Positions 3,202 through 11,737 of a stretch of 34,489 nt of DNA are shown piece after piece. Source of the stretch: Actinomycetota bacterium (GTDB lineage Bacteria; Actinomycetota; CADDZG01; WHSQ01); the NCBI GenBank assembly GCA_013694625.1, contig JACDCD010000147.1:1-34489 (forward strand), written 5' to 3'. The notes below the pieces were generated by a model. The model was not told the DNA's origin. It did not search any database and worked only from the letters and a program-made list of their open reading frames with translations. A program made the position numbers and the translations under genes. Position 1 is the first letter of the stretch. The number at the start of each line of letters is the position of its first letter.

Positions 3202-5220
3202 TCATGGGCGTGCCGACGCCCTGCCTGCGGCCACAGTTCCGAGCACGGCGGCAAGCACAATCGCACCGGCAAGCGACACCGCCGCAACCGTACCCGAGAA
3301 GGGCCCGCGCACGACCGCGAGCGCCGCGATCCCGGCCAGCGTCACCAGGGAGAGCCCGAGCGCCGGGGCGATTGCGATCCCTTCGGGCCACGAGGCCCCC
3401 GGCCAGCACCACCGCAGCAGGAAGACCCCGGGGAGGATCAGGAGGGCGAGCCCGCCGAGGACGCGAAGCAGGTGCAGCACACCGGCCACAGAGCCCTCGC
3501 CGGCCCGAGGGAGAGAGCTCCCAGGGAACGTCTCTGAACCATTGAGGCTGCCATCGTGGAGGTACCAGACCTCGGTGTCCCCGGTATCCGGGCCTTCCGC
3601 CTCCCCCGACGCCACCTCGGCGTTGGCCCCGGCCGGATTGAAGGCGCTCGCGACGACGACGACCGGGTCCTTGCCGGAGCTCCGGATGCCCTCCCGGGCG
3701 TCGTCCAGCAGGGCCGGTGACACGCGATCGTAGGTGGCGTCCCCCGTGGTCGTGGGCTTGCCCGCCAGGTAGTTCTCGAGGGAGCCGAGATAGAGGTAGC
3801 CCTGGTCGATCTGCCCCGGTGGGAGGCCGTAACGCGACGTGTTCCCCGACAGCTTCGTATGTCCCCAGATCTGCGGCGACGGCTCATCGTCGATCACGAA
3901 CACCACCGGGCGGTCCTCGTTCACCTCCGCCAACCCCGCCCGGAGCGCATCCAGGTCGGAGCGCTCGTCGGCCGAGAGCCATCCCCCCTCCGGCTTGTTC
4001 CACCCCGAGACCTCGAACCCGGTCTTGAAATTGTAGGCAATGACCGCAATGACCAACCCCATCCCGGCGACGGCGATCAGGCGACCGGCGCCTCCACCGT
4101 CCCCGGCGGAAAGGGCCGCTCGAGCAACGAAGTACGCGCCGATCCCCATCAGGAGCACCCAGGACAACGTCGTGTTGAAGAAGCGGTAGTAGGGATAGGT
4201 CAAACCGGCGAGGAAACCAAACACACCGACGAGCGGAGCGAGCCACACGATCGAGATGCGCGCGAGGTCCCCCCGGGCGGCCCTTCGCGCCGTCACAACC
4301 AATCCGACGACGCCAATGAGGAACAGGGGTCCGTTGAGCACGGGATTCATCGCCGCAACCCAGCCATTCAGGCGTTCGACGAAGAAGGCACTGTCATAGG
4401 GGGGCGGCAGGGCTGCATCGGCCAGTGAAGCCGATTGCCCCCAGATGCCGGCGATCCAGATGCCCAGGGTCAGCACGGCCGACACGAACGCCGCCATGAG
4501 CATCGGCCCATCGTCCCTGATCACCGCCCGCAGATTGCCGCGTCCGAGAACGAGGCGCACCACGGCCATGGCGCCCAGAACGAGGCAGAAGATCACCAGC
4601 GTGGTGGGATGGGTGAAGCCGGCGAGCACGAGCAACCCGCACAACGTGATCCCCGCCGCCCAGGAGCGGCGTGCCAAGGTCAACAACGGCAGTGCCGCGG
4701 CCAAGAAGAACAGGGTCAGAAGGTTGTCGAGATAACCGACGAAGGGCGGAGTCAACAGGAGCGCTCCGGTGGCGAAGGCGACCAGGTGCCAGGCCAGAGG
4801 ATCCCGAAAATGCTGGTAGGCGAACGCCGCCAGCAGCAGCGAGGTCAGCACGGGCAGCCCGACCATGAGCAGAACCGTCATCTGGAGCGACGCCACCCCC
4901 GCAACCTGTCGCAGGAACGCCCCCATTACCGCGGCGGATACCCGGTAGCCGCCGGCGAACATGTCGAAGGCGCCCTCTATCTGGATGAGCTTGACAGGCT
5001 CTTCTGACAGCAGCACCTCCGTTCGCCACGTGTAGTAGGCGGGGTCCTTGGTCGGCGCCACGCGACCCGAGTCGGCGACGAAGGTCCAGCCATACAGAGC
5101 CAGCAGGATGGCGATGGTGGCCAGGTACGCAAGCGGATGCCCCAGCACACGATCGAGGATGGGGGGACGGGTGAAGAAGGTGTCGTTGCGGGCGCGATTG
5201 GTCAAGGTTGTGGCGGTCAT
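3202..5220 (-). CDS. Large polytopic membrane protein, glycosyltransferase-C-like
   Basis: 672 residues. One membrane helix near 30-50 is followed by an outward loop with an acidic motif (TKDPAYYTWRTEVLLSEEP, about 57-75), placed like the catalytic Asp of GT-C glycosyltransferases. A long set of membrane segments follows to about 410, then a soluble domain (about 420-570; NKPEGGWLSADERSDLDALR, PVVFVIDDEPSPQIWGH), then three or four further helices to the C-terminus. No named family was recognised; the GT-C assignment is structural inference. The start ATG overlaps the stop of a nine-codon ORF that carries the strong ribosome binding site, so translation is probably coupled. It lies between hydrolase 1 and the flippase and is presumably cotranscribed with both. 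Confidence 0.7.
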   Translation of the reverse strand: MTATTLTNRARNDTFFTRPPILDRVLGHPLAYLATIAILLALYGWTFVADSGRVAPTKDPAYYTWRTEVLLSEEPVKLIQIEGAFDMFAGGYRVSAAVMGAFLRQVAGVASLQMTVLLMVGLPVLTSLLLAAFAYQHFRDPLAWHLVAFATGALLLTPPFVGYLDNLLTLFFLAAALPLLTLARRSWAAGITLCGLLVLAGFTHPTTLVIFCLVLGAMAVVRLVLGRGNLRAVIRDDGPMLMAAFVSAVLTLGIWIAGIWGQSASLADAALPPPYDSAFFVERLNGWVAAMNPVLNGPLFLIGVVGLVVTARRAARGDLARISIVWLAPLVGVFGFLAGLTYPYYRFFNTTLSWVLLMGIGAYFVARAALSAGDGGGAGRLIAVAGMGLVIAVIAYNFKTGFEVSGWNKPEGGWLSADERSDLDALRAGLAEVNEDRPVVFVIDDEPSPQIWGHTKLSGNTSRYGLPPGQIDQGYLYLGSLENYLAGKPTTTGDATYDRVSPALLDDAREGIRSSGKDPVVVVASAFNPAGANAEVASGEAEGPDTGDTEVWYLHDGSLNGSETFPGSSLPRAGEGSVAGVLHLLRVLGGLALLILPGVFLLRWCWPGASWPEGIAIAPALGLSLVTLAGIAALAVVRGPFSGTVAAVSLAGAIVLAAVLGTVAAGRASARP

Positions 5221-5255: not shown

Positions 5256-6911
5256 CTAGGTTTTGCACCTGAGCCCGGGCAGCAGGCGCGACGGAATCGA
5301 CATGGCGAACAGATTGTCGTCCGGCTCGAACTCGCCGGCGCCCAGGAGCTTCGTGTCGGGGCGAACGGTGTTGTCGGTCACCCGGTAGGTCGCTAGGAAG
5401 TCTGCGACCTCGCCCACGGTGACGTCGCGCTCTTCCATGACGTCCTCGAACAGAAACACCTCGGTCGGCCACACCGCCCGCGTGATGGGACCAAAGCGCT
5501 CGTCGATGTCCGCGGCGACTTCCCCGGGGTCTATTCCGTAGCCGCCGATGTCGGATGCGTCGGGTTGCTGGCCGTGGTCGGCGGTCATCACCACCACCCA
5601 ATTGCCCCTCCCGACGACCCTGTCGAGTGCTGCGAGGATGACACCGAGCTGGCGGTCGGTGGCGGCGACTGAATCGTGGACCTCCTCCGATGCCATGTTG
5701 AAGTAGTGGCCCACCCGGTCTATCTGCTTGTAGTTGGTGAACAGCAGGTCGGTGACCCGGTCGGCCCCGTAGCCCTCCTGCCGGATGAGGTTCATCATCG
5801 CCCGGGTGTGGTACGCGATGAAGGCCGGAGTCTCCTCCCAGTGCTCCCGGTTGTCCTCGTCCAACCAGGCGTGTTCGCCCCACGCGCCGTCCTTCGCCCC
5901 GTCGGCCGCATCGAGGCGATCGAGGTCGGCCTGCAATCCCGGCGTGTCCACCAGCGCAGCCGGAAGACGGTAATGGTCTTCGTTGGTGATCCAATCGTTG
6001 GTTTCGATGTCGAGCCACACCGCGTCGTCCTTGTCCCCGCCGGGTTTCTCGGCGCCCTTGCCGATCATGCCGAGATGCCATGGTTCGTATCCCACCATCC
6101 CGACAAGCGGCCGGTTGTCGTGGGCCTCGTCCCAGCGTTCGGCGAGGGTGGGCACCTCCAGAAAACGGGACGACTCGCCCTTCAGGAACGCGTCGACCAC
6201 CGTGCCCTCTTCATCGCGCACGGGGATGCCGGTGATGCCGTGCTTGTCCGGGAAGTCGCCGGTGCCCAGCGTCGTGTGGATCGCGGGGGTGACAGAGGGA
6301 GAGGAACCCACGGTCGCGTTGGCGTACAGGGCCCCCTCCTCCATCATCGTCTTGAGCACCGGCCAGTCCTCCGGCCACTGATCGAGCACGTTCCAACCCC
6401 CGCCGTCGTACACGATGCTGAGGATGAGCCGCGGCCGGTCGTCCGGGAGAACCGCCCCTGGCGGCGCCACCTCACGCATCGGCTTGCCGTCCGAGCGAAT
6501 CAACCCGCCCATTAGCCGGGCGAGTGTCGGCGCTATGTCTGCGGTGGTCACCGGCCGGTCGATGGGCTCGCGGGCCGGAAGCACGCCGGGCCCGTAGAAG
6601 ACGATCGGAATGCGCTGCAGGTAGGGCCAGGGGCCCGAGTGACTCCAGCCCCCGGCGCCGCTCGCGAGATAGGCGGGCTTCACCGGGAGCACCGCGATCT
6701 GGCCCGAGCGCTCCGGATGGTAGCCACGGACGGTCCGGGTGAGCCATGAGCGAGGCAGCGCGCACGCCTGGCGAACGGCCGAGGGCGCCTCTTCTTGGCT
6801 CACGAACCAGGTCGAGCCCGCCACCGCCGCAGTGGTCAGGGCCACGAGTGCGACGATCAGAAACACTGCGATCCGGCGAGGACGTCCCGTCGCGCCGAAA
6901 CGCGATGTCAA
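5256..6911 (-). CDS. Alkaline-phosphatase-superfamily hydrolase 1, apparently circularly permuted
   Basis: 551 residues. A hydrophobic segment at about 14-36 should act as a signal anchor, placing the enzyme outside the membrane. Superfamily (type I phosphodiesterase/nucleotide pyrophosphatase) metal and nucleophile residues are recognisable: D169 (IVYDGGGWNVL), Thr208 nucleophile (SVTPAIHTTLGTG, then FPDKHGITG), D398 and H402 (DRVGH), D445 and H446 (TADHGQQ). The block that normally closes such proteins, with the final His and the VPxxFYGPG...DIAPTLA motif, is instead at residues 69-135 (H91 in GGWSHSGPWPYLQRIPIVFY). The substrate is unknown; a phosphomonoester or phosphodiester in envelope lipids or glycans is a guess. 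The start ATG overlaps the stop of the MFS gene (ATGA). Paralogue of the gene at 8209-9927. Confidence 0.85.
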   Translation of the reverse strand: MTSRFGATGRPRRIAVFLIVALVALTTAAVAGSTWFVSQEEAPSAVRQACALPRSWLTRTVRGYHPERSGQIAVLPVKPAYLASGAGGWSHSGPWPYLQRIPIVFYGPGVLPAREPIDRPVTTADIAPTLARLMGGLIRSDGKPMREVAPPGAVLPDDRPRLILSIVYDGGGWNVLDQWPEDWPVLKTMMEEGALYANATVGSSPSVTPAIHTTLGTGDFPDKHGITGIPVRDEEGTVVDAFLKGESSRFLEVPTLAERWDEAHDNRPLVGMVGYEPWHLGMIGKGAEKPGGDKDDAVWLDIETNDWITNEDHYRLPAALVDTPGLQADLDRLDAADGAKDGAWGEHAWLDEDNREHWEETPAFIAYHTRAMMNLIRQEGYGADRVTDLLFTNYKQIDRVGHYFNMASEEVHDSVAATDRQLGVILAALDRVVGRGNWVVVMTADHGQQPDASDIGGYGIDPGEVAADIDERFGPITRAVWPTEVFLFEDVMEERDVTVGEVADFLATYRVTDNTVRPDTKLLGAGEFEPDDNLFAMSIPSRLLPGLRCKT

Positions 6912-8203
6912 AGCTGCGACCCGCCCCCGGACTCAGCGGTGAGGGGTGCGCCCAGCAGACCGGCGCGCCGAAACCACACTCCAATCGCGCCGACCCCGAT
7001 CAGGAAGGCGACCCCCATGGCGGATATGAGCACCGGCCCGAGACCGTCCCACAAGAGCTTCATGATCGCGGCAGCCACCACCCATGCGAGGTTGTAGGCG
7101 ATGTCGTAGAGGGAAAAAGCGCGGCCTCTGAAATTGTCCCCTAGCGCCTCCTGCACCATTGTGTCGAGCGAGATCTTTCCCAGGAAGAAGCCGAAGCCGA
7201 GGCAGAAGGTCAACAGCCCGAGTGTGAGCGGCAGCTCGAGGGCGCCGAGGACCGCAACCGCGACTCCTGCGATCGCACTTGCAGCGAGCACCAGTTGTGC
7301 GGTGGTTGATACTCGCTCGCTGAGCCGGTTGGCCATCATGAAACCGAGTGCGGCGCCGGCTGCACCTGCGCCCCCGGTAATCAGCAGCACCCCAAGGTCA
7401 TCGTTGGCGAGAAGGTCGCGCGAGACAAAGCCAATCCCCACGATGGAGAAGCTCCACAACAGGCGCAGCCAGAAGTAGGTCGTTATCGATGCAGCGGCCT
7501 TCGGCGTCCGCGCAACCTCTTGCACGCCATCGAGGATGTTTCGGGCGACACGCGCAACCTCCAGCATGAAGGTGGACTTGACGCGCGGCTCTCCGGCGCG
7601 GCGGATGCCGAGAGCGAAGAACGCGCCCGCACCGTAAACCAAAGCACCGGCGAGCACTATGGGCTCTGCATCGAGCACGGTTGCGGCGACGATGGCAACA
7701 CCAGCGCCCCCGAGCTGAAAGATGGCGCCGCCGAACTGCGAGAGGGCGTTGGCCTCGACGAGCGCTGTGCGGTCGACGGTCTCGGGAAGCGCAGCCGACT
7801 TCGTTGCGAGCACAACCCGTGTGGAGGCGAGCGTCAACAAGAACGCCAGGAACAACGCCAGATCCCCAACCGAAGTGGTCCCCACCAGCCCGATGAGAGC
7901 GATGACAACCGCGCGCAGACCGTTTGCAACGAACAGAAGTCTTCTTCGATCCCAGCGGTCGATAACCACTCCCAGGAACGGGCTGATGATCGTATAGGGG
8001 ATGAAGATGTAGAGCACGATACGCAGAAGCTCGTCCGGCGAACGGGCACCCTCGACGTCAAAGCCCTTCTGTCCGCCGAAGACGATGAGCTTTGCAAGGG
8101 CCCCCTGGACCAAACCGTCGCCCGCCTGCGCCAGGAACTGCGCGCCCATCAGGAAGCTGAAGTCCCGCTGCTTGACGAGCAGAGACGCGCCCTGCTTGAG
8201 CAT
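6908..8203 (-). CDS. Major facilitator superfamily transporter
   Basis: 431 residues from ATG 8203, with twelve or so hydrophobic segments. Typical MFS pieces are the first-half loop GVVIDRWDRRRLLFVANGLR (G-x-x-x-D-R-x-x-R-R, motif A), LATKSAALPETVDRTALVEA, and the second-half FRGRAFSLYDIAYNLAW. It resembles the MFS_3 group of drug or siderophore-type exporters, but the cargo is not predictable. The frame is open to 8752, but that part overlaps hydrolase 2 and is Arg-rich noise. The start is five bases after the upstream stop, with GTGGGG just before it. The stop overlaps the next start. Its place between two paralogous extracytoplasmic hydrolases suggests transport of their substrate or product. 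Confidence 0.87.
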   Translation of the reverse strand: MLKQGASLLVKQRDFSFLMGAQFLAQAGDGLVQGALAKLIVFGGQKGFDVEGARSPDELLRIVLYIFIPYTIISPFLGVVIDRWDRRRLLFVANGLRAVVIALIGLVGTTSVGDLALFLAFLLTLASTRVVLATKSAALPETVDRTALVEANALSQFGGAIFQLGGAGVAIVAATVLDAEPIVLAGALVYGAGAFFALGIRRAGEPRVKSTFMLEVARVARNILDGVQEVARTPKAAASITTYFWLRLLWSFSIVGIGFVSRDLLANDDLGVLLITGGAGAAGAALGFMMANRLSERVSTTAQLVLAASAIAGVAVAVLGALELPLTLGLLTFCLGFGFFLGKISLDTMVQEALGDNFRGRAFSLYDIAYNLAWVVAAAIMKLLWDGLGPVLISAMGVAFLIGVGAIGVWFRRAGLLGAPLTAESGGGSQL

Positions 8204-8208
8204 CCCCA

Positions 8209-9927
8209 CTAACTGTCTCCTACGGTCAGGTCGCCCTCGAGATAGTCGCCCGGCCCGAAGGAGTCGATCTTCTCCGGCGTCAAGTTCTGCAGGTAGTCGG
8301 TGGAGAACGCGCCGGCGAACAGCGTTTCGTCCAGACGCCCCTCCGGAACCAGGTCCGATCCCGGCGCGCCTTCGGGGATGTTCTCGCCGATCGTGTAGGT
8401 GCCGATGTACGATGCGATGTCGTCCATGCTCACACCTTCCGACTGGAGGGCGTCTTCGTCGATGAAGATGTCGACGGTCGTTATCTTCTCGACCACGTCT
8501 CCGAACCTGGACTGGATGTCGCGCTCGAACTCGCCCGTGTTGATGCGCCAGCCACCGTACGTTTCGGGGATGGGCTGCTGCCCGTGGTCGGCGCTGACGG
8601 CGAGGACGTAGTTGCCCCTGCCCACCTTGGCGTCGAGCGTCGCCTTGAAGCGGGCAAGCTGGCGGTCGGTCTCGTAAAGAACGTCGCCGACCTCCGGATT
8701 CTCCATGTTCCAGGCATGCCCAGCATAGTCGGGGGCCTTCATCTCGACCCACATGAAGTCGGTGATGTCGTCGGTGCCGATGGTCTCGTCTCGCAGCATG
8801 TCCACCGCTGCATCGCCGGTGAACCTAACAAAGGCAGGGGTTCCCGGCCGCACGGTGTCTTCCTGAAGCTCCTCCAGCGTGTTGCCGAACCAGAGGCCGT
8901 CGGGCACACCGTCGCGCTCGTCCAGCTCTTCCTCGTAGGACTCGAGCGTGGCGAGGTCGGTGGCCGCCAGCGACTCCGGCAGCGTGTAGTAGTCCTCGTT
9001 GGTCCACCACTTGTTCTCCTCCGCTTCCCACAGCGCGACGAGATCCTTGTCGCCACCCTCGCGCTGGGCGCCGTGGCCGATCATGCCGAGGTGCCAGCCC
9101 TCGTAGGACACGGTGGCGACGGTGGCCCGGTTGTCGTTGGCCTCGTCCCACAGCTCGGACACGGTGGGTATCTCGAGGTAGCGCGGGTCGGCGTTCTGCA
9201 GCCAGACGTCTTCGATCGGGCCCTCCGGGGTGCGCATCTGATTGCCCGGCACACCGTGGGTGACCGGATAGCTGCCGGTCCCGAAGGTCGCATGGAGGGC
9301 GCCCGTGATCGACGGGGCCGAACCGATGGTGCCGTTGAGATAGGTCGTGCCGTCCCCGCGCAGGCGGGCGAGCGCCGGCCACGAGTCCGGGAACCTCTGG
9401 AGGACGTTCCAGCCACCCCCGTCGATGACCAGGGTGAAGATTACCTTCGGTGGCTTGGCTTTGGCGCCGTCGACTATCTCGGGATACGGCTCGCCGTCAG
9501 CCTCGAAACCGTCAAGTCCCACAAGGGATGCATAGGTGGGGGCCAGGCCCGTGATGTCGGCGGCGCGCGTTACCTCCCGACCTTGCGGCACGTACCCGGG
9601 TCCGTAGAGGACGATGGGGACGCGCGCCAGATAGGCCCACGGGTTCGGGTGCGACGACGCAAGCCACGGCTCCGACGTGCCGAGGGTGGTGAGGTCCCAC
9701 TCGCCGATGAGGTAGCGGTAGGGCTTTGGCACCGTCATGATCTCGCCGGACCGCCCCGGCACATGGCCTCTCTCGATGTTCTCCATGAGCGGCGCCCCCA
9801 CAGCGCTCGCCATCGAATCGAGCGACGGCGCGCCGGCCGGCGCGCCGGTTTCGGGGCGCAGCACGTAGGCGGCCAGAATTGCGATGATCAACGCCGCCGA
9901 CGCGACGAGCAGGACGCGCTTTGACAC
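8209..9927 (-). CDS. Alkaline-phosphatase-superfamily hydrolase 2, apparently circularly permuted
   Basis: 572 residues from GTG 9927 (purine-rich GGAAGGGGGGAGG directly upstream). A signal anchor at about 4-22 (LLVASAALIIAILAAYVL) implies an extracytoplasmic enzyme. Active-site residues by alignment to the superfamily are D169 (LVIDGGGWNVL), Thr208 nucleophile (SITGALHATFGTG), D400 and H404 (DYAGH), D447 and H448 (SADHGQQ). The segment normally at the C-terminus lies at about 58-138: GRSGEIMTVPKP, then H93 in SSHPNPWAYLARVPIVLYGP, then ITGLAPTYASLVGL. D169 and T208 fall at identical positions in hydrolase 1, so the two are clear paralogues with the same rearrangement. Substrate unknown. The gene starts 41 bases after the TIGR03943-like gene and probably shares its transcript. 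Confidence 0.86.
   Translation of the reverse strand: MSKRVLLVASAALIIAILAAYVLRPETGAPAGAPSLDSMASAVGAPLMENIERGHVPGRSGEIMTVPKPYRYLIGEWDLTTLGTSEPWLASSHPNPWAYLARVPIVLYGPGYVPQGREVTRAADITGLAPTYASLVGLDGFEADGEPYPEIVDGAKAKPPKVIFTLVIDGGGWNVLQRFPDSWPALARLRGDGTTYLNGTIGSAPSITGALHATFGTGSYPVTHGVPGNQMRTPEGPIEDVWLQNADPRYLEIPTVSELWDEANDNRATVATVSYEGWHLGMIGHGAQREGGDKDLVALWEAEENKWWTNEDYYTLPESLAATDLATLESYEEELDERDGVPDGLWFGNTLEELQEDTVRPGTPAFVRFTGDAAVDMLRDETIGTDDITDFMWVEMKAPDYAGHAWNMENPEVGDVLYETDRQLARFKATLDAKVGRGNYVLAVSADHGQQPIPETYGGWRINTGEFERDIQSRFGDVVEKITTVDIFIDEDALQSEGVSMDDIASYIGTYTIGENIPEGAPGSDLVPEGRLDETLFAGAFSTDYLQNLTPEKIDSFGPGDYLEGDLTVGDS
9826..9847. repeat. 22-base perfect palindrome with two GGCGCGCC octamers
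   Basis: Bases 9826-9847 equal their own reverse complement. The arms are CGGCGCGCCGG and its complement. It lies inside the coding sequence for the low-complexity linker after the signal anchor of hydrolase 2 (TGAPAGAPS), so it could simply be a result of Gly/Ala/Pro codon use. It contains two of the 24 GGCGCGCC copies counted in the window. Confidence 0.5.
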
Positions 9928-9968: not shown

Positions 9969-10718
9969 CTAGTACAGATAGGGGTCGTCGGGCGCTTTTG
10001 CAGGCTTTATGGAGTGCGGGAACAGCATGAATCCGGCGTCGGATTGCCCCAGCTGCCCTCCGATCTCGAGCCACCGGTCATCGGGATAGGCACTCGGGAC
10101 GACGGGTCCAGGCGGGCGCACGACGACCGAGTAAGGGATGGCGTCGGCCGCGCAACACGACACGTAGAACCGGGTCAAGGCGAAAAAGCCCTCCGGGATA
10201 CCCGGCGGATGCGTGATGAAGCCCGTCAGGTTCACACCCATCCCGTCGCTTAACCCGCGCTCCAGCGCGTACCTCTCGGACTGCCCCGCGTAGTAGATGT
10301 CCCGGAAGCCGATCGGCCCGCTCCCCGGCGCACCGGGCGCCGCCGCGGCCGCTCCGACGAGGATCCCCGACGGCGCCTTATTGGCCGCCGCCTGCGAGCC
10401 GAGCTGCGCACCAGGGACCGCCAACATGGCCACCAGCGGAAGCAGGAGTACGCCGAACCGGGCCCCGTCGCCCGCCGACAGCTCGTCGCGGTCTGAGGAG
10501 CGCCGGGCGCCTGCCGCCGTCACGGCCGCCGCGCCCCCCAGCGCCACAGCTCCAAACGGGGCCACCCAGAAGGTGCGCGGGCCGAGGTAACGCGTCATCT
10601 CGCCGCTCAACCACAGCCAGGCGAAGACCAGGCTCCACAACCCCAGTGCCCCGGCCCGGGCTGAGTGCTTGTCAAAGCCGTGCCGGTGCGACGACGCCCT
10701 GACGGCCCCGGGCCTCAC
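9969..10718 (-). CDS. TIGR03943-family (YcgQ/DUF1980-like) permease partner
   Basis: 249 residues from GTG 10718, which overlaps the permease TGA as GTGA. It has an N-terminal membrane pair (LGLWSLVFAWLWLSG; TFWVAPFGAVALGGAAAV), a third helix (VLLLPLVAMLAVPGAQ), and a C-terminal extracytoplasmic domain with the family signature FYVSCCAADAIPYSVVVRPP (adjacent cysteines followed by ADA). The open frame extends to 11417, but that part overlaps the permease and is Arg-rich noise. Genes of this family almost always sit directly after a PF03773 permease, as here. The transported species is not established; the paired Cys suggest metal or redox chemistry. Confidence 0.85.
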   Translation of the reverse strand: MRPGAVRASSHRHGFDKHSARAGALGLWSLVFAWLWLSGEMTRYLGPRTFWVAPFGAVALGGAAAVTAAGARRSSDRDELSAGDGARFGVLLLPLVAMLAVPGAQLGSQAAANKAPSGILVGAAAAAPGAPGSGPIGFRDIYYAGQSERYALERGLSDGMGVNLTGFITHPPGIPEGFFALTRFYVSCCAADAIPYSVVVRPPGPVVPSAYPDDRWLEIGGQLGQSDAGFMLFPHSIKPAKAPDDPYLY

Positions 10719-11737
10719 CGGACCAGAGCCTCGAACCACAGCGATCCGGCCAGGACCACCGGGACGGCGACGATCAGCAGCCGGCCGACGAAGCGCCTCC
10801 GGAAGCTTGCGCTGTAGAGCAGGGCCAGCTTGGCGTCGACCGCCGGGCCGAACACCAGGAACGCCAGTTGCGCTCCGATGGGGAACTGGGTGAGGGAGAC
10901 CGCGACGAAGGCGTCCGCCTCGGAGCAGAGCGACAGGACGAAGGCGATCCCCATGAGCGCCAGCGACCCGACAACCGGGGTACGCGCCAGGCCCGCGACC
11001 AAGCTCTGCGGGATCACCGTCTGGAGGGCGGCGGCCAGCGCCGCTCCTGCGACCACGAAGCTGCCCATGAAGAAGAAGTCCGAGGCGAGGTGGTCGGCAA
11101 AGCTCACCGATCGTGCGGGAGGGGCCATCACGGGGACCGCCCGCGCCGGCGTGGGCTCGCCGGGTCTCGATTTGAGAAGCTCGGCGGCGGACTCGCCCCC
11201 CAGCGCCCAGCCCGCGACCACGGCCAGCACCAGCCCGAGCACCACCCGTCCGGCGGCCATCTGAAGGGATAGGCCGAGGCCCCGGTAGGCGATCACGGTC
11301 GAGGCAAGCACGATCGGATTGAGGATCGGGGCCGCGAGCATGAACGCCAGCCCCGAGGCGGGGTGCATGCCCTTGGCGATCAGCCTGCGGGCGACGGGCA
11401 CCGAACCGCACTCGCACACCGGGAAGGCAAACCCGCCGACCGCTGCAGCCGGAAGTTGGAGCCCCAGGGGCAGCCGGGCCACCCGGTCGAACGCGCTCTG
11501 GGGAACGAAGACCTCGATCGCCGCGGCGACGAGCGCGCCCAACAGGATGAAGGGGAGTGCCTCCACGACTATGGAAGTGAAGATGACGACGAAGCTCTGA
11601 ACGAGGGGATGCCCCCCTATGCCCGCCATCCGCACGCCCACGATCGCCGCCGCAACGAGCGACCCAGCCACTGCGACGGCAGAGGGAGCGGCCGGACGGC
11701 CCAGGGCGGGGAATTCGGTGGTTGCCACTCCGCTCAC
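10715..11737 (-). CDS. Permease, PF03773/ArsP_1-like
   Basis: 340 residues, with about eight to ten membrane helices split by a polar loop around 185-215. Family markers are FPVCECGSVPVARRLIAKGM in the first half (conserved Cys plus VPxxR), AFMLAAPILNPIVLASTV, and SLCSEADAFVAVSLTQFP in the second half. ArsP members export methylarsenicals; members paired with a TIGR03943 protein, as here, have unclear substrates. The start is GTG 11737, with a second GTG three codons later. A TCACG-N4-CGTGA inverted repeat overlaps the start. It appears to be the first gene of the run extending to 1590. Confidence 0.87.
   Translation of the reverse strand: MSGVATTEFPALGRPAAPSAVAVAGSLVAAAIVGVRMAGIGGHPLVQSFVVIFTSIVVEALPFILLGALVAAAIEVFVPQSAFDRVARLPLGLQLPAAAVGGFAFPVCECGSVPVARRLIAKGMHPASGLAFMLAAPILNPIVLASTVIAYRGLGLSLQMAAGRVVLGLVLAVVAGWALGGESAAELLKSRPGEPTPARAVPVMAPPARSVSFADHLASDFFFMGSFVVAGAALAAALQTVIPQSLVAGLARTPVVGSLALMGIAFVLSLCSEADAFVAVSLTQFPIGAQLAFLVFGPAVDAKLALLYSASFRRRFVGRLLIVAVPVVLAGSLWFEALVR

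Follow-up and report, generated by a model that had tools for sequence, protein, structure and literature searches.

The results establish that P0001 and P0002, two paralogous genes of an uncultured actinobacterium, encode circular permutants of the alkaline phosphatase superfamily: that is, proteins in which every conserved PafA-like block is present once, in rotated order. We consider it very likely that both proteins are PafA/PhoK-like two-metal phosphohydrolases, membrane-anchored and extracytoplasmic, of an actinobacterial family, with metal-site geometry and activity being inferred. The genes lie in a window (the whole stretch of DNA that was analysed) of 34,489 nucleotides, in which both frames are real and open, and in which the features are as follows:

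3202..5220, minus strand: polytopic membrane protein, 672 aa, downstream of P0001
5256..6911, minus strand: P0001, circularly permuted alkaline-phosphatase-superfamily enzyme, 551 aa, TTG start
5265..5267, minus strand: P0001 C549, at the new C-terminus, other half of the predicted disulfide
5397..5774, minus strand: P0001 residues 380-505, with D398-H402 and D445-H446 (PafA D305-H309 and D352-H353)
6207..6440, minus strand: P0001 residues 158-235, the PafA N-terminal block, with D169 (D38) and nucleophile T208 (T79)
6468..6761, minus strand: P0001 residues 51-148, the PafA C-terminal block (chain 435-532), now first
6639..6641, minus strand: P0001 H91, aligned with PafA H486 (chain index 475) and present in 84/84 sequences
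6762..6764, minus strand: P0001 C50, on the new N-terminal side, half of the predicted disulfide (co-occurs with C549)
6807..6881, minus strand: P0001 residues 11-35, predicted membrane anchor helix (AlphaFold2 model helix and hydrophobic sequence)
6908..8212, minus strand: MFS-type membrane protein (PF07690), between P0002 and P0001
8209..9927, minus strand: P0002, permuted paralogue, 572 aa, GTG start
8398..8817, minus strand: P0002 residues 371-510, with D400-H404 and D447-H448
9235..9453, minus strand: P0002 residues 159-231, the nucleophile block, with D169 and T208
9469..9789, minus strand: P0002 residues 47-153, the former C-terminal block, including H93
9649..9651, minus strand: P0002 H93, counterpart of P0001 H91 and PafA H486

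P0001 comprises an N-terminal membrane helix followed by an extracytoplasmic domain, and extracytoplasmic action is inferred from the helix. P0002 is 39% identical to P0001 and lacks its Cys pair. The two genes are not adjacent: the MFS-type gene separates them, and the gene order P0002-MFS-P0001 is kept in most related loci spanning the region. The 672-aa membrane protein, for which no Pfam family match was found, is kept downstream of P0001 in relatives whose record extends that far. Upstream of P0002, window positions 9969-11737 encode an ArsP-type permease and a DUF1980 C-terminal domain protein, conserved in several relatives.

A search of the PDB with P0001 as a single sequence (phmmer) yields three separate local matches to PafA (5tj3), in rotated order: residues 51-148 match chain positions 435-532 (i-E 8.8e-5), residues 158-235 match 16-95 (i-E 0.005), and residues 380-505 match 276-411 (i-E 1.2e-9). 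PhoK/SPAP (3q3q) is likewise matched in rotated order by phmmer, with P0001 residues 48-134 matching 442-532. The old termini are linked by a short linker, P0001 148 to 158 connecting PafA 532 to 16. Published PafA numbering equals the 5tj3 chain index plus 11, as judged from the mutant 5too (T79S, N100A), which differs at indices 68 and 89; therefore, H91 pairs with index 475, that is, H486, T208 pairs with T79, and D169 pairs with D38. With P0002 alone, the nucleophile and D/H pieces of PafA are matched and the first block is weak (i-E 280). A profile built from an alignment of 84 relatives (A1) matches PafA strongly in each of the three pieces (i-E 3e-8, 2e-26, and 9e-12), and the first block becomes clear (A1 positions 55-154 to PafA 435-534; i-E 8.6e-12).

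The family profile also matches unpermuted proteins of Acidobacteria, Holophagaceae, and Elusimicrobia MAGs in exactly rotated pieces covering the conserved blocks; with an Acidobacteria MAG protein, profile positions 137-228, 346-444, and 33-138 match residues 22-112, 266-364, and 440-540, respectively. In the reverse test, an independent profile built from five canonical PafA-like proteins of other phyla places the H block ahead of the nucleophile block in 84/84 family members and gives the canonical order in 0/84. No canonical H block is detected by this profile after D445-H446 in any of the 84 members, and P0001 has zero His after H446. PF01663 exceeds its gathering score (23 bits) in both proteins (93.4 and 101.3 bits), and its alignment covers only profile positions 2-226 of 342, ending at 223-226 in both proteins, since what is C-terminal in the profile lies at the start of these chains. 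With PF01663 or PafA models, annotation reaches only part of each protein and hides the last ligand block. We conclude that the rotated order and the completeness of the block set are shown.

The preliminary description, made from the sequence alone, had identified H91/H93, D169, T208, D398-H402/D400-H404, and D445-H446/D447-H448 as the metal ligands and nucleophile, and all of these residue numbers are correct. Its claim that the C-terminal block has moved ahead of the nucleophile domain is supported by the rotated PafA matches and the alignment of H91 with H486. The profile search that it proposed for homologues of the same order returned the rotated order in 84/84, and, at the level of sequence, no canonical H block that could supply the last His follows D445/D447 in the 84 members. 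The rotated order is common to both paralogues and to all relatives found, and the permutation therefore predates the P0001/P0002 duplication, as had been claimed. The route that it proposed, tandem duplication and loss of the outer halves, is not shown: the P0001/P0002 family (hereafter cp1) contains no intermediate, and a two-domain form was found only for a second, apparently independent permuted family.

H91, D169, D398, H402, D445, and H446 are invariant in 84/84 sequences, and the T208 column contains Thr in 82/84 and Ser in 2/84; conservation of the ligand set is thus shown. The pattern of cysteine pairing is also shown. P0001 contains two Cys in total: C50 follows closely on the membrane helix, and C549 lies close to the other end of the chain. 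In the family as a whole (n = 84), both are present in 67 sequences, neither in 17, and a single one in 0, and a tree built without those columns gives at least two changes of state of the pair, both concordant. The pair fits a predicted disulfide closing the cut, an inference from the fact that the equivalent points are chain neighbours in canonical PafA.

The structure prediction that the preliminary description had called for gives one confident fold (AlphaFold2 on A1, P0001; mean pLDDT 93.5, pTM 0.91), in which the moved block is approximately as confident as the core (pLDDT 87-99). The nearest solved folds to the model are PafA and PhoK/SPAP (TM 0.38-0.56 with Foldseek, an order-dependent aligner); the TM of 0.49-0.56 to PafA is that expected of a sequence-order aligner, yet is not proof. 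Mean-field DCA shows no enrichment over expectation of contacts between moved block and core, with an alignment that is too shallow (84 sequences, Neff 54). The placement of H91 in the metal site, and of the two new termini side by side, is an inference that rests on homology, the confident fold prediction, and the concordant terminal Cys pair; no metal distances were measured.

The distribution of the family is shown as follows. A search of 397 genomes of the phylum finds close relatives in four families; the permuted family is present in every genome of the bacterial family to which the window belongs, and none was found in the two other (sister) families of the class. Named records with relatives are mostly Actinomycetota MAGs, Bacterium HR12 among them. 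A contig search with an alignment-based query finds 33 loci; with a single protein as query, no loci were found. PafA (NF042991) exceeds its cut-off in 0 of 24 genomes of the class, and where pieces of the NCBIfam PafA model match within the bacterial family, they do so on permuted genes and with their order rotated. Searches of plasmids with tblastn give a few partial matches, and the annotated ones examined are canonical relatives.

Besides P0001, the genome containing the window encodes seven or more permuted paralogues, of which P0002 is one (approximately eight members in all), and also encodes canonical-order PF01663 proteins. A cluster of six of the latter occurs in the same genome (G000:C171), and most of the canonical PF01663 proteins examined have acidic C-terminal tails that resemble one another ('...EEE...LGYL/LGYV'). 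A divergent permuted paralogue of approximately 445 aa, without the nucleophile and ligand motifs, occurs upstream of P0002 in several genomes, together with the ArsP/DUF1980 permease; from the lost motifs we infer that it is catalytically dead. This paralogue (L120-L125; in the same genome as the window, G000:C178:22572-23492) has apparently kept the terminal Cys pair, and is often encoded divergently beside copies that we regard, by inference, as active.

According to the hypothesis that we propose for the origin of the family, a PafA/PhoK-like ancestor within the alkaline phosphatase superfamily would have undergone circular permutation: the chain would have opened just ahead of the old C-terminal block, and this block (strand, H486-type ligand, and 'DIAPT' helix) would have been joined to the old N-terminal strand through a linker of approximately ten residues. 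Folding would restore the ordinary active site, in which D169, D445, and H446 would bind one metal and D398, H402, and H91/H93 the second; the circle would be closed, in most members, by a disulfide linking the two new terminal segments. A two-metal hydrolytic mechanism with a covalent threonine intermediate is established for the alkaline phosphatase superfamily, and is predicted for these proteins because of their ligand set: Thr208 would attack phosphorus, a covalent phosphothreonine would form, and water would release it.

The proteins meet the definition of the superfamily in nucleophile and six Asp/His ligands and do not meet it in the order that places the last His near the C-terminus, 84/84 being rotated. 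Among solved structures, PafA (5tj3/5too; NF042991) is nearest both in sequence and in fold, and it shares the fold family, the nucleophilic Thr, and the full set of six metal ligands; it differs in that its residues 435-532 come first in the family chain and in that N100, K162, and R164 are mostly replaced. The columns of K162 and R164, located through the PhoK match, contain mostly E/V and W, and the N100 column contains mostly I/V/N/H, with N100 kept only in a minority that includes P0002; PafA-like monoesterase activity is therefore unlikely, an inference from residue replacement made without activity data. P0001 and P0002 score 107.8 and 122.9 bits with the PafA equivalog model NF042991, below its cut-off of 650 bits. 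PhoK/SPAP (3q3q, 5xwi), the second-best relative, has the same ligands, but has the canonical order and a 'GKDR' motif (containing the PhoK equivalents of PafA K162/R164) that is replaced in the family. NPPs (Xac NPP, ENPPs; PF01663) share the Thr nucleophile and the PF01663 match over cut-off, but PF01663 covers the family proteins only in part, their C-terminal part being N-terminal. Our best guess for the substrate, slightly more likely to be wrong than right in the absence of activity data, is a diester or another phosphoryl or sulfuryl substrate; the lost N100/K162/R164 contacts are taken, by inference, to point to such a non-monoester.

A second permuted family, cp2, is NPP-like; its nine proteins (L108-L116), each of approximately 500 aa, come from other families of actinobacteria. 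In cp2, the H block (GEHGS...) precedes the DG, T..NHT, D..H, and ADHG motifs, no obvious signal peptide is seen, and canonical proteins match the profile in rotated order; the structural model is moderate (pLDDT 79.2, pTM 0.77). The closest relatives of cp2 are the outer halves of proteins of approximately 1,200-1,400 aa. In trees of rotated sequences, cp1 groups with canonical PafA-like proteins and cp2 groups with canonical NPP-like proteins (bootstrap 100%). Monophyly of the permuted proteins is rejected both in the first tree, in which the halves of the tandem proteins were paired (C1,N1) and (C2,N2) (p-AU 6e-5), and in the redone tree, in which they were paired C1+N2 and more canonical rows were included (p-AU 0.0013). 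The break points differ, the approximately 100 residues before the cp2 H block being C-terminal in cp1, and the nearest solved folds are PafA for cp1 and NPPs for cp2. Two permutation events are therefore more probable than a single one, although the long branches call for caution.

Candidate sources of the apparent order that were rejected are chance motif matches, an assembly artefact (the order recurs across many genomes), a C-terminal block that was simply lost, and a fused accessory domain. In its full form, the last of these holds that the N-terminal block is a separate domain, derived from a C-terminal fragment by duplication or fusion, that leaves the catalytic domain incomplete, and that the true last His is elsewhere or missing. 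In its favour, H91 is placed by sequence homology only and the first block of P0002 is divergent. Against it, no canonical H block follows D445-H446 in the 84 members, and P0001 has no His past H446, and the site would therefore be incomplete without H91; in addition, H91 is invariant, the block is modelled with high confidence within the single fold, and Cys50 and Cys549 co-occur without exception. We consider this explanation very unlikely.

We consider it comparably improbable that the permuted order is ancestral, for the superfamily or for a branch of it, and that canonical PafA is derived. Unrooted trees cannot formally exclude this; however, the PafA-like, NPP-like, and own-genome PF01663 proteins that were compared, from several phyla, have the H block last, the permuted families are limited to Actinomycetota within the data searched, and trees uniting all permuted proteins in one clade are rejected (p-AU 6e-5 and 0.0013). 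That cp1 and cp2 share one permutation event is less remote, but still unlikely: the profile-profile match between them is collinear (hhalign prob 99.5, E 3e-23) and both occur in Actinomycetota, but each groups with different canonical proteins at 100% bootstrap, one clade is rejected (long branches being present), and break points and nearest solved folds differ. Derivation of cp1 by permutation of a canonical PafA/PhoK-like enzyme remains the reading that we prefer.

The preliminary description knew of no account of such proteins, and this held in the open-access literature searched, where no report was found of alkaline-phosphatase-superfamily proteins being circularly permuted in nature, subscription papers being outside the scope. 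An engineered circular permutant of E. coli alkaline phosphatase (Kojima et al. 2005, cited in PMC2395249) indicates, judging by its title alone, that permutation can leave a member of the superfamily active, but is a laboratory PhoA construct, not a natural gene family. The AlgX/DHHW families of SGNH hydrolases (PMC9487903) show natural permutation of catalytic motif order, but in another hydrolase superfamily with unlike chemistry. The superfamily to which these proteins belong serves as a standard model of the evolution of enzyme specificity, and a natural rotated form, retained through many duplications, indicates that the fold and bimetal site tolerate relocated chain ends. Rotated and canonical proteins, together with the second, apparently independent case, provide a natural comparison for folding, disulfide closure, and catalysis.

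The large proteins related to cp2 may be a snapshot of a permutation arising. Open frames in three genomes (G002, G032, and G289) encode proteins of 1181, 1276, and 1389 aa with the order C1-N1-C2-N2. Scores against cp2 are much higher for C1 (69-103 bits) and N2 (153-174 bits) than for C2 (9-18 bits) and N1 (27-54 bits), and the inner N1-C2 therefore reads as a canonical-order domain inside permuted halves. A bolder reading, which we favour by a narrow margin, is that Actinomycetota contain at least two natural permutations of the superfamily: one PafA-like, with approximately eight copies per genome, a disulfide staple, and a dead paralogue, and one NPP-like, with extant Ca-[Nb-Cb]-Na proteins. 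The order Ca-[Nb-Cb]-Na is the one expected if a fused two-domain enzyme were permuted as a whole, and deletion of the inner domain would then give the single-domain permuted form. The loci of the nested proteins are L196/L190 (G002:C27), L198/L194 (G032:C37), and L195/L192 (G289:C20), and an apparent Ig-like tail follows the alkaline phosphatase halves.
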